Shown piece after piece: positions 10,886 to 42,833 of a stretch of 64,000 bases of DNA. The position numbers were made by a program, and so were the translations under genes. Below the pieces are notes generated by a model, which was not told the origin of the DNA, ran no database searches, and was given only the letters and a program-made list of their open reading frames with translations. Origin of the DNA: Sulfurospirillum multivorans DSM 12446 (GTDB lineage Bacteria > Campylobacterota > Campylobacteria > Campylobacterales > Sulfurospirillaceae); assembly GCF_000568815.1 (NCBI RefSeq), contig NZ_CP007201.1, positions 310,001 through 374,000 on the forward strand, given 5' to 3'. Positions within the stretch are counted from its first letter, which is position 1. Each line of letters opens with the position of its first letter.

Positions 10886-10907
10886 GGGAAATCCTTTAAA
10901 ATCATTA

Positions 10908-11036
10908 GAGTTCTGGAGAACTCTTTACACGTTTTCAAAGCGAAGCTTTCAAAACTACGTTAACACTGGGTTTTCTTCGGCAGAAAGCCCGCGCACCCTT
11001 GGTGCTTTCCTTCTTGCAAATTGAATTTTGCAAGAA
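10908..11036 (+). repeat. Structured dispersed repeat, copy A
   Basis: A 129-base intergenic element between the divergent triad-1 and tsdA genes, about 88% identical to the reverse complement of 42422-42550. Consecutive hairpins are visible: GAGTTC/GAACTC at 10908-10923, a 23-nt hairpin between TTTACACG and CTACGTT, GGGTTTTC/GAAAGCCC, GCACC/GGTGC, and a final TTCTTGCAAA stem. It begins only 23 bases upstream of the proposed Cache start codon. Because it lies between divergent genes it cannot be simply a terminator. Confidence 0.8.
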
Positions 11037-11080
11037 GTCTATTATGACTTGAATTATAGCTCAAAAGGGCGAAGTGGAAA

Positions 11081-12619: not shown

Positions 12620-14307
12620 TGCTCCCCTACCTCAGTCACAAAGCCTTTATGCGCTCCCATTATGGCGAAGCACTCTTTAGCATTCCTGTCAATTTAGAGT
12701 TTGGCTGTCCTAATCGCGAACGTGATGGCAGTGGAGGCTGCTCTTTTTGCCCCGAACACGGAGCGCGTGCGGCGCAGATTGCGGATGCAAAAAGCGTGGA
12801 AGAGCAGATAGAAAAAGCAATTTCTTTTGCTAGAAGACGATACAAAGCCTCTTCGTTCGCACTCTACATTCAAGCTTACACAGGAACTTTTGCCTCGTTG
12901 GTCATGCAAAAAGAGGCGTATGAAAAACTGCTGTCGCTCTACCCTTTTCGCGCGTTACATGTAGGCACACGTCCTGATTGTCTCAGTGAATCGACGCTGG
13001 AGTATTTGCGTGAATTAAACCAAAAAATAGACGTCGTGGTCGAACTGGGCGTGCAAACTTTGCACGATGCAAGTTTAGCGCACATGAACCGAGGGCACGA
13101 TGCCGCTTGTTCGCTGAACGCAATTAAGCGTTTACATGTAAAGGGTTTGAAGGTCTATGCGCATCTCATTATTGGCTTGCCTAATGAGAATTTAGAGATG
13201 TGGAAACAGAGTCTGAAAGGCTTGGTGGACGCTGGCATTGATGGCATTAAATTTCACAATTTGCATATCATCGAAAATACCGATCTGGCGCGCGAATTTT
13301 CTCAAAACCCTTTTGCGCTTTTAAGCGAGTACGAATACGCCGAAGCGCTCATCGAGCTGTTGCGTTTGACGCCTTCACACATTCCTATTTTGCGCCTTGC
13401 CACCGACACGCCAACACATGAACTCATCGCTCCCAAATGGCACATGGCAAAAGGACAATTTGGCGAATACATTGCCCAAACGATGCGCTATCGTGGCATC
13501 AAACAAGGCGATTTGGTCGAATCTAAGCGTGAAGAAAGTTATGAAATACCACAAAAAATCGATCTAAAAGATGGAAGTTCGACTTTATGGAGTGAAACGT
13601 ACCATGATTATTACCATCCCAAAGCAGGTGCGTACATACAAGCCGAAACGCTTTTTATTGAAAAATCAGACCTCAAAGCACGCCTTGAAAAAGGCGATGT
13701 GAACCTTTTAGAGATCGGTTTTGGGATGGGTTACACCACATTTAAAGCGTTAGAATTAGCCCAAACCTTAGCCAAAAATCGTTTACATGTAAACACCATC
13801 GACCAAGATCGCATGCTCTTGCAAACGGCATCTGCCATCGTTCCCAATGCTTTACATGTAAAGATGTTGAACGCACTTTTTACATGTAAAACCTACGAAG
13901 ATGATTTTACAAGGATTGACTTCCACACTATCGAAGCGCGCTATGGTGTCACGCTTTTGAGCGAGACATTTGATGTCATCTTTCTAGACCCATTTATCGA
14001 GAGTAATAACGCTTCGCTCGTCACCTTAGAATTTTTCAAAAACCTGCGAAAATTGCTTAAACCTGATGGCATTTTGGTCGCCTCAACCACTTTACATGTA
14101 AGCCAAATCGGACTCAATCTCGCAGGCTTTGACGTGCAAGTCGCCAATGATGAAAACAGCGACATCAAAGGTGTCGTCGCCACACATTCTACGGCTTCAA
14201 AATCGTTACATGTAAAAGAGCCGTACCGCGATCCTTATGGTGTTTGGAGTGATAAAATGATAGAAAGCGAGCATCAAAAAATCTTTACATGTAAAGGCAG
14301 AAGTTAA
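12619..14307 (+). CDS. Radical SAM protein (YhcC/TIGR01212 type) fused to an MnmC-like methyltransferase domain
   Basis: A 562-residue two-domain protein. Residues 1-310 form a radical SAM domain of the YhcC type with cysteines 30, 41 and 44 in a C-x10-C-x2-C arrangement (CPNRERDGSGGCSFC), followed by YIQAYTGTF, GTRPDCL, ELGVQT and HLIIGLPNE. Residues 325-545 look like the MnmC-type methyltransferase (LWSETYHDYYHPKAGAY, SAM-binding LLEIGFGMGYT near 363-373, FDVIFLDPF). The fusion suggests a nucleic-acid-modifying enzyme, but the substrate is unknown. Eight copies or near-copies of the TTTACATGTAAA palindrome sit in this one gene, coding LHVK/N/S or FTCK. The stop codon lies in the left terminal repeat of the next element. 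Confidence 0.85.
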   Translation: MLPYLSHKAFMRSHYGEALFSIPVNLEFGCPNRERDGSGGCSFCPEHGARAAQIADAKSVEEQIEKAISFARRRYKASSFALYIQAYTGTFASLVMQKEAYEKLLSLYPFRALHVGTRPDCLSESTLEYLRELNQKIDVVVELGVQTLHDASLAHMNRGHDAACSLNAIKRLHVKGLKVYAHLIIGLPNENLEMWKQSLKGLVDAGIDGIKFHNLHIIENTDLAREFSQNPFALLSEYEYAEALIELLRLTPSHIPILRLATDTPTHELIAPKWHMAKGQFGEYIAQTMRYRGIKQGDLVESKREESYEIPQKIDLKDGSSTLWSETYHDYYHPKAGAYIQAETLFIEKSDLKARLEKGDVNLLEIGFGMGYTTFKALELAQTLAKNRLHVNTIDQDRMLLQTASAIVPNALHVKMLNALFTCKTYEDDFTRIDFHTIEARYGVTLLSETFDVIFLDPFIESNNASLVTLEFFKNLRKLLKPDGILVASTTLHVSQIGLNLAGFDVQVANDENSDIKGVVATHSTASKSLHVKEPYRDPYGVWSDKMIESEHQKIFTCKGRS

Positions 14308-33638: not shown

Positions 33639-33750
33639 CTTGACACGCACCAAAAGCAAAGCTCTTGGTGCTACGTTTGCCACTAGGGCACTAAAGCTAG
33701 CCTCTTGCGAGGCAGAATCGTTAAGCAAAGCTCGCCAATCAATTGGCAAG
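33639..33750 (+). repeat. Structured dispersed repeat, copy C (diverged)
   Basis: This interval keeps the anchors CTTGACACG and CTACGTT at the same 23-nt distance as copies A and B, followed by CACTAGG, but the 23-nt hairpin between them has a different sequence: CACCAAA pairs with C-TTGGTG around AAGC-aaa-GCT. The geometry (ten positions per arm, one mismatch, 3-nt loop) is unchanged. It continues with GCCTC/GAGGC and ends with a GCCAAT/ATTGGC stem. It lies between the TraT-like gene and ubiE. Confidence 0.65.
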
Positions 33751-41537: not shown

Positions 41538-42437
41538 GTGCAAGTAAAACTAAGAGAACTCGCTGATTTACTTCAAAAAGAGACTTTACACGAAGGGCTC
41601 AATGCGACACGCATCGCTCATGTCAAGCTTTTCAAAGCCTCAAGTGTCACCGAAGCGTTGCATACAGTGTATGAGCCTTCACTCTTTATCATTGCTCAAG
41701 GGGCTAAAATCGTAATCTTGGGCGCTACTACTTATCGTTATGATGCTTCTTCGTATTTAGTCTCTTCGATGAATTTACCCATATCGGGGCAAATCATCGA
41801 GGCGTCTTTGGAAAAGCCTTTTTTGTCGATGCAACTGTGTTTTACGCCTGAGTCTATTTTTGACCTTGTATCTCAGTTGCCTTCTCACAAAGAAGAGGTA
41901 GCAAGAAGCCCTTTGGCAATGAGCGTTCACCACGTTACCGAAGAGCTGATTGATGCGGCGTTACGACTCGTAAAACTCCTTCACAAACATGAAGAGATTC
42001 CCATCTTAGCGCCACTGATTATCAAAGAGATTCTCTATCGATTGTTGCAAGGAGAATATGGTGTTATCTTACGGCAATTTGCATTGCATGGCTCTAACGC
42101 AAACCGCATTGCTCAGTCAATTGAGCTGATAACCTCAGATATTTCAGAGCCGTTGCGCGTCGAAGCCTTGTCGCAAAAAGTAGGCATGAGTGTCTCGGCT
42201 TTTCACAAACAGTTTAAACACGTAACAGCGATGAGTCCCATTCAGTACCAAAAACAGTTACGCTTGCAAAAAGCCCGCGAGCTGTTATTTACCAAGACGC
42301 ACGAAGTAGGTGAAGTGGCGTTTAATGTAGGCTATGAAAGTCCTTCGCAATTTAGCAGAGAGTATGCACGATTTTTTGGTCTTTCGCCTCAAAAAGACCT
42401 TATGAAATTTAAAATGGAAAGTTCTTGCAAAAGTTAA
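41538..42437 (+). CDS. AraC-family transcription regulator
   Basis: A 299-residue protein with an AraC N-terminal ligand domain (YEPSLFIIAQGAKIVILG) and two C-terminal helix-turn-helix motifs (VEALSQKVGMSVSAFHKQFK and VGEVAFNVGYESPSQFSREY). It starts with GTG behind AAAAGGGTATTTC. It probably regulates the SDR gene immediately upstream. The last codons and the TAA stop lie inside the end stem of repeat copy B (TTCTTGCAAAA/TTTTGCAAGAA). Confidence 0.88.
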   Translation: MQVKLRELADLLQKETLHEGLNATRIAHVKLFKASSVTEALHTVYEPSLFIIAQGAKIVILGATTYRYDASSYLVSSMNLPISGQIIEASLEKPFLSMQLCFTPESIFDLVSQLPSHKEEVARSPLAMSVHHVTEELIDAALRLVKLLHKHEEIPILAPLIIKEILYRLLQGEYGVILRQFALHGSNANRIAQSIELITSDISEPLRVEALSQKVGMSVSAFHKQFKHVTAMSPIQYQKQLRLQKARELLFTKTHEVGEVAFNVGYESPSQFSREYARFFGLSPQKDLMKFKMESSCKS

Positions 42438-42550
42438 TTTTGCAAGAAAAAAGCACCAAGGGTGCGTGGGCTTTCAGCCGATGAAAACCTAGTGTTAACG
42501 TAGCTTTCGAAGCTTAGCTTTGAAAGCGTGTCAAGAGTTCTGTAAGAACT
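42422..42550 (-). repeat. Structured dispersed repeat, copy B
   Basis: A 129-base element, the same length as copy A (10908-11036) and about 88% identical in inverted orientation. Read on the minus strand: GTTCT/AGAAC hairpin, TTGACACG, 23-nt hairpin (CTTTC pairs with GAAAG; AAGC pairs with GCTT), CTACGTTAACACTAGG, GGTTTTC/GAAAGCC hairpin, GCACC/GGTGC hairpin with TTTTTT after it, and a TTCTTGCAAAA/TTTTGCAAGAA stem. Relative to copy A, changes in the 23-nt stem are paired. It separates araC from the FMN riboswitch. Confidence 0.8.
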
Positions 42551-42594
42551 TTATAGATACAAGGGCGTGTGACATTTTTTAAGAAGAGTGGAGT

Positions 42595-42600: not shown

Positions 42601-42613
42601 TTCATCGAAACTT

Positions 42614-42760
42614 ATTTCTCAGGGCAGGGTGCAACTCCCTACTGGCGGTAATCTTGTAACAAGGAGAGTCCGCGAGCGCTTTTACATGTAAAACGGTAAA
42701 AGGTCAAGCAGATTTGGTGTGATTCCAAAACCAACGGTTAAAGTCCGGATGAGAGAGAAT
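42614..42760 (+). ncRNA. FMN riboswitch (RFN element)
   Basis: The conserved blocks are in order: CTCAGGGCAGGGTG, CTCCCTACTGGCGGTAA, GAGTCCGCGAGCG, GGTCAAGCAGATTTGGTG, ATTCCAAAACCAACGGTTAAAG (in two parts) and AGTCCGGATGAGAGAGAA. It binds FMN and controls ribB downstream. The variable arm between CGAGCG and GGTCA holds a perfect TTTACATGTAAA (42681-42692). CAGGGCA (42620-42626) is complementary to TGCCCTG (42814-42820) in the leader, which could form the alternative pairing. Confidence 0.95.
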
Positions 42761-42833
42761 GTAGTGCATTATTGCCATTGTTGATGACAAAATCGTGTGT
42801 CTATATTTAAAGATGCCCTGATTCTGGTAAGTT

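Follow-up and report, generated by a model that had tools for sequence, protein, structure and literature searches.

A dispersed intergenic element of Sulfurospirillum with the anatomy of an IS5-type MITE and a covarying double-pseudoknot core

Related elements in the window

The window, by which we mean the whole 64,000-nucleotide stretch of DNA that was analysed, holds two copies of one element, A and B, in opposite orientations, and a third, related element, C (Table 1). A preliminary description, made from the sequence alone, had listed three copies, and much of what it said is borne out: all three are present at the positions given, A and B (42422-42550, minus strand) are 88% identical by BLAST over query positions 10-129, against a claim of about 88%, and C (33639-33750) keeps TTGACACG, a 23-nt hairpin, CTACGTT and CACTAGG in common with them. 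In each hairpin one mismatch and an AGC/GCT apex accompany a 3-nt loop (GAA, TAA or AAA). The outer pairs, said to vary together, indeed differ among the three and remain paired. The extent of A required correction, the element spanning 10907-11040 rather than 10908-11036. The claim that one hairpin covaries held only in part, as covariation extends over a 79-nt core of three helical blocks, of which the hairpin is the smaller share. The claim that C is one more copy of what A and B represent failed.

Table 1. Positions of the elements and their parts in the window (strand of a core or hairpin is its folding strand)
Feature	Position	Strand	Basis or remark
Left target-site duplication of A, ATT	10904-10906		ATT repeated past the right end
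Copy A, 134 bp, very likely a MITE of an IS5-family IS	10907-11040	+	Terminal repeats, ANT duplication, empty site, resident 916-bp IS
A left terminal inverted repeat, AGAGTTCTGGAG (family consensus AGAGTTCTTGCA)	10907-10918	+	Contributes to a small hairpin at the terminus
A structured core, 79 nt	10927-11005	-	R1 covariance-model match, 100.2 bits; minus is the folding strand
A hp1	10931-10955	-	Hairpin of the preliminary description plus a closing G-C pair; stem variable, plus-strand apex GCNAAGC conserved
A tandem double pseudoknot region, 36 nt	10956-10991	-	
A hp3 (GCACC...GGTGC)	10993-11005	-	
A right terminal inverted repeat, TGCAAGAAGTCT	11029-11040	-	Copy alignment and IS end
Right target-site duplication of A, ATT	11041-11043		
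Copy C, class C element	33643-33708	-	hp1 and CTACGTT as in A and B; 3' half different (GCCACTAGGGCACTAAAGCTAGCCTC...GAGGC)
C hp1	33647-33671	-	CACC...GGTG here, CCCC...GGGG in the G006 ortholog
Copy B, same element inverted	42418-42551	-	Outer ends decayed (AAGTTC.../...GAACTTT)
B structured core	42453-42531	+	R1 match, 98.0 bits; folding strand opposite to element orientation, hence window plus
B hp3	42453-42465	+	R1 match
B double pseudoknot region	42467-42502	+	
B hp1	42503-42527	+	R1 match

Under the covariance model used throughout (R1, built from 46 cores of the genus and applied order-wide), C scores 37.2 bits (E 4.8e-8) compared with about 100 for A and B. Some 20 places in the genome score between 25 and 43 bits; they have hp1 and CTACG in common, followed by GCCRCTRTGGYRCTRAAGCTTGCCTC...GAGGC, and are without the pseudoknot core. 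We conclude that they form a sibling class, class C, of the A/B element. Many of its copies lie 21-30 nt upstream of a start codon on the minus strand, according to rough gene calls.

Two other features of the window were observed in passing. The only hit of an Rfam 15 scan above the gathering threshold was an FMN riboswitch (RF00050, 112 bits) near copy B at 42611-42764 on the plus strand. A palindrome, TTTACATGTAA(A), occurs 53 times counted by strand (34 sites of TTACATGTAA) where 0.04 would be expected, for example at 13782-13792, 13851-13861 and 42681-42691 and at about 30 other sites, both within and outside genes. Its density throughout the genus is about 50 per 100 kb, and it is nearly absent from the other genera examined. 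It resembles a DNA-uptake sequence or some other genus-wide signal.

Anatomy of the element and its IS5-family partner

The 3.18-Mb genome contains 34 places that match A by BLAST, about 36 strong copies and 58 covariance-model matches, and A finds BLAST matches in all 24 genomes of Sulfurospirillum. The preliminary description had staked its case on further copies in the same genome and on covariation in an alignment of many copies; the first check is passed by these counts and the second, strongly, by the analysis of the fold below.

Alignment of the copies places the ends of the element at AGAGTTCTTGCA...TGCAAGAAGTCT. Among the 39 full copies, the duplicated target triplet is ANT, and the 3-bp flanks match in 82% of cells compared with 33% when the right flanks are shuffled, none of 2000 shuffles reaching as high. 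Clean empty, otherwise collinear orthologous sites were found in the genome of a sister species (G006) for copy A (320908) and for the copy at 142096. Further copies are absent from their G006 sites with junctions that are more diverged or less clean, about eleven are common to the two genomes, and the orthologous site of B is occupied, its hp1 being different but paired. A pattern search for the same ends returned pairs 921 bp apart, which correspond to a 916-bp insertion sequence (IS) with five intact copies and a perfect ANT duplication at each. The end of this IS is identical to the right end of the MITE at 21 of 22 bp. Its transposase gene is split over two overlapping frames, the halves of which match HTH_Tnp_4 and DDE_Tnp_4 in Pfam, and both halves also match NCBIfam transpos_IS5_4, each falling under the whole-protein cut-off because the gene is divided between two frames.

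It is very likely that A and B are MITEs of this IS5-type insertion sequence, and their mobility is well supported, although transposition itself is inferred from anatomy. Among the possibilities raised in the preliminary description, that of a non-autonomous mobile element thus holds for A and B. The resident two-frame transposase would cut and paste them in trans, an inference made without a transposition assay, and would do so by recognising ends of the form AGA(G/C)TTCTTGCA and duplicating a 3-bp ANT target; the ends and the duplication are shown by the anatomy. Like other IS5-family MITEs, A and B have matched terminal repeats, a 3-bp ANT duplication and a resident full-length IS with the same ends, but their interior is not derived from the IS and consists instead of a conserved structured module. 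Two further small sequences have related ends: an element of about 170 bp (L116 211-378), which has a TTATGCAAAAAGTCT end and a different interior, and a minimal hairpin, AGAGTTTTTGCAAAACCAGTTTTGCAAAAACTCT (L117 372-407).

Fold and distribution of the core

Covariation shows that the minus-strand core consists of hp3, two tandem H-type pseudoknots and then hp1. We gauged covariation against shuffles, against slid partners and by APC-corrected mutual information. In the genus alignment of 46 copies there are 80 double-change cells versus 26.4 in shuffles, and nine pairs change on both sides. RNAalifold proposed pairs 53-63, 54-62 and 55-61, which displace part of a hairpin, hp2, and order-wide both the 53-63 helix and 47-50/56-59 are almost always paired, with the two interleaving. 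A plus-strand fold with a TCGGC loop was dropped in favour of minus-strand pseudoknots because its pair 43-63 forms poorly whereas 53-63 is nearly always formed. The 36-nt consensus on the minus strand reads N-GRGC-N-CTCT-GCY-GA-AGAG-AAC-NNA-GY-GUU-A-RC-GUA, in which helices 3-5/11-13 and 7-10/16-19 make up pseudoknot 1 and helices 20-22/28-30 and 26-27/32-33 make up pseudoknot 2.

This arrangement was assessed in two wider sets. In 60 order-wide sequences, chosen out of 132 so that near-duplicates were avoided, 99.3% of cells are paired versus 81.6% in shuffles and at most 45% with slid partners, and 157 double-change cells are seen versus 42.5 in shuffles. In an unselected set of 189 sequences, gathered with a pattern that left these columns largely free and their neighbours fixed, the six column pairs ranking highest by APC-corrected mutual information are all predicted pairs; the next ranks, 23-32 and 23-27, are not base pairs, and 20-30 and 21-29 come ninth and thirteenth. 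Between genera the stems are wholly different and the pairing is kept. A coding origin was considered and rejected: plus-strand frames can be read through the element, but its variation, judged by eye, tracks base pairs rather than codons.

As for the strand that folds, the preliminary description had allowed either RNA or single-stranded DNA, a claim that stands and can now be narrowed to the minus strand. With the fixed A.C position excluded, non-Watson-Crick combinations in hp1 read on the plus strand comprise 59 A.C versus 11 G.T; a plus-strand A.C is a minus-strand G-U, which argues that the minus strand is the one that folds. In the 189 sequences, read on the minus strand, pair 27-32 is U-G in 15 cases versus C-A in one, and pair 24-34 is U-G in 49 versus none. 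Predicted folding energy is lower on the minus strand in 113 of 128 comparisons with RNA parameters and in 120 of 128 with DNA parameters. To judge from what is known of pseudoknot geometry, the loop lengths too are better suited to the minus strand. We regard folding of the minus strand, as RNA or as single-stranded DNA, as very likely, and note that the strand evidence does not separate the two.

Changes can also be followed between orthologous copies. The hp1 of C differs from its G006 ortholog by a compensatory double change (CACC...GGTG here, CCCC...GGGG there), and one pair of loci, L221 and L263, shows paired changes in hp1 from CACT/AGTG to TGCT/AGCA and from CGGC/GCCC to CAGC/GCTC. 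Some other orthologs carry changes that break pairs, so that single copies look dispensable once inserted and selection may favour spread over host function. A 17-nt longer hp1 variant, AAAACGAAGTTTCTGTGAAAAG, is found at G000:C1:225796 and 3083318 (L026 and L029) and is absent from both G006 orthologs; the variant that these two sites share is likely to reflect gene conversion from another copy. Conversion of this kind inflates the covariation counts within the genus. We therefore consider selection to be clear across the family and less so for each copy.

The core extends well beyond Sulfurospirillum: of 399 Campylobacterales genomes, 131 have a match to the covariance model, as do 28 of the 87 genera. 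Among the hits of a pattern scan of 84,980 species are records whose titles name Campylobacterota (Sulfurospirillum, Sulfurimonas, Sulfuricurvum, Sulfurovum, Arcobacter and Hydrogenimonas), along with a few that have unspecific titles such as 'Proteobacteria bacterium'. Phage and plasmid records yielded no match at 1e-5, and a pattern search matched one viral contig. Core copies also occur in tandem, with periods of about 82-99 nt. The taxonomic range of the core far exceeds that of the MITE, and from this we infer that the core predates it.

Its settings outside this MITE are varied. In one genome (G179) the core sits in a MITE with quite different inverted repeats, CCATTAAGTTAA...TTAACTTAATGG, and in three others (G278, G312 and G308) it lacks visible terminal repeats. 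Four core copies of G278 are missing at the orthologous sites of sister species; one of these insertions (L226) is bounded by a 23-bp direct repeat, and the junctions of the other three are ragged. As a separate observation, a repeat of about 107 bp (AAACGGTAGTTAGCGTGTCGGCCGGATCACCGAGG...) recurs in three related genomes (G205, G301 and G384), with several to more than ten occurrences per genome, and also forms the left flank of a G278 element (L223).

Possible roles of the core

Neither Rfam 15, which has no family for the element at the gathering threshold or at E values up to 5, nor the open-access literature searched, in which no description of it was found, supplied a match, and to that extent the earlier statement that no matching family is known holds. 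The element shares with Rfam structured RNAs the covariation typical of selected RNA folds, without matching any Rfam 15 family. ERIC, RUP, BOX and Correia elements are likewise dispersed, intergenic, structured and MITE-like sequences of about 100-150 bp, but they belong to other hosts, whereas the element described here is order-wide and has covarying pseudoknots. REP/BIME sequences of the GTAG, RAYT-associated type resemble it in having many intergenic copies, an imperfect palindrome that commonly, though not invariably, follows GTA(G), G-T pairs in the stem and tandem groups; they differ in that the core here is longer (about 80 nt), contains two pseudoknots, has no linked RAYT and, in this genus, is carried by a MITE of DDE type (IS5).

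All copies examined are intergenic save for one ambiguous call, and they lie near stop codons and ribosome-binding sites, often just past the former or just ahead of the latter. Relative to the neighbouring genes, taken from simple ORF picks, the orientations number 27 (++), 16 (-+), 14 (+-) and 13 (--) in the genus and 16 (--), 10 (++), 8 (-+) and 6 (+-) in the order. These near-even counts reveal no excess of a sense that a strand-specific mRNA element might prefer. Given this mixture, we rejected a regulatory leader of one gene class and favour a REP/ERIC-like element over a leader that serves particular genes. Integron attC sites were also set aside, as RYYYAAC/GTTRRRY boxes are found in none of the 189 36-nt sequences on either strand, a search confined to that stretch rather than the whole element.

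On balance, the explanation we favour is that A and B are IS5 MITEs carrying an older structured module of the Campylobacterales that is REP/ERIC-like in character. How such a module might act is a more tentative matter. When read through in the minus sense, the core would fold within mRNA, and a host factor might then bind or cut the folded core and so set the stability or processing of neighbouring messages. This REP/ERIC-like action in mRNA is inferred without expression data, and we stop short of calling it probable.

Ranked after the mRNA reading, and still possible, is one in which an enzyme of the host or of a transposon recognises the minus-strand structure as single-stranded DNA in the course of replication or transposition, as happens with REP/IS200-type hairpins, and the structure has no role as RNA. 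In its favour, the minus strand folds better with DNA parameters too (120/128), hp1 with GTAG ahead of it on that strand resembles GTAG-tagged REPs, and orthologous sites in another genus differ in whether they hold a core-only copy, which implies that something moves these copies. Against it, the G-U/G-T wobbles at many pairs and the conserved unpaired residues suit RNA at least equally, a Y1 transposase is absent from 4 of 12 core-bearing genomes, no examined Y1-gene locus carries the core, and the bias in replication direction is weak (about 18 of 25 in G278 and 12 of 21 in G301, by inspection with the record start taken as origin). A bolder reading, also possible, is that the core is an undescribed mobile structured RNA, a tandem double pseudoknot with a variable hairpin, that has spread through the Campylobacterales because unrelated transposons captured it, and possibly along its own route as well, its propagation being driven by an activity such as protein binding or self-processing.

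An unlikely alternative treats the core as a passenger, selfish or neutral, whose pairing owes more to gene conversion and palindrome-correcting template switching than to selection. Mutation alone can generate perfect palindromes, and hp1 variants common to several loci do appear to move within a genome. However, the interleaved helices of the pseudoknots covary, which correction of a single palindrome does not readily yield, the hp1 mismatch is retained as a minus-strand G-U rather than repaired, and stems that are wholly different between genera are nevertheless paired.

Weakest is the proposal of a REP moved by a RAYT (Y1 tyrosine transposase), which, although the minus strand reads as a GTA(G)-hairpin and Y1 genes are found in 23 of the 24 genus genomes, is very unlikely given that 43 Y1-gene loci contain no R1 match, that the sole Y1 gene of this genome is bounded by its own GGGGTCAGG inverted repeats, that the same 4 of 12 core-bearing genomes have no Y1 gene, that the ends and target-site duplication of the element are of IS5 type, and that the core is 79 nt long compared with 20-40 bp for a REP unit. 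A strict GTAG-hairpin script found no core beside Y1 genes either. The 5' GTAG beside the hp1 palindrome is common rather than fixed; GTAA and GCAG also occur, and the last G belongs to a stem pair. GTAG-tagged repeats have been reported in epsilonproteobacteria including Sulfurovum NBC37-1 (PMC3733652), and these may possibly include hp1 of the present element. The sole Y1/RAYT-like gene itself (L069 1393-2238; G000:C1:378441-379286) is flanked by GGGGTCAGGGCTAAA inverted repeats and resembles the TIR-associated tyrosine transposases of PMC3733652; in one genome (G008, L067), a GGGGTCAGGGCTAAA-type end abuts a truncated core.

Returning to the favoured reading of IS5 MITEs that carry an older module, what emerges is that intergenic repeats of sulfur- and hydrogen-metabolising bacteria of one order contain a compact, covarying two-pseudoknot fold that none of the RNA libraries searched includes. 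The family also provides a clear case in which compensatory change is visible from one ortholog to another. Because the same fold is found in two MITEs with different ends and outside recognisable MITEs as well, it is of benefit either to the host or to mobile elements, or is itself mobile.
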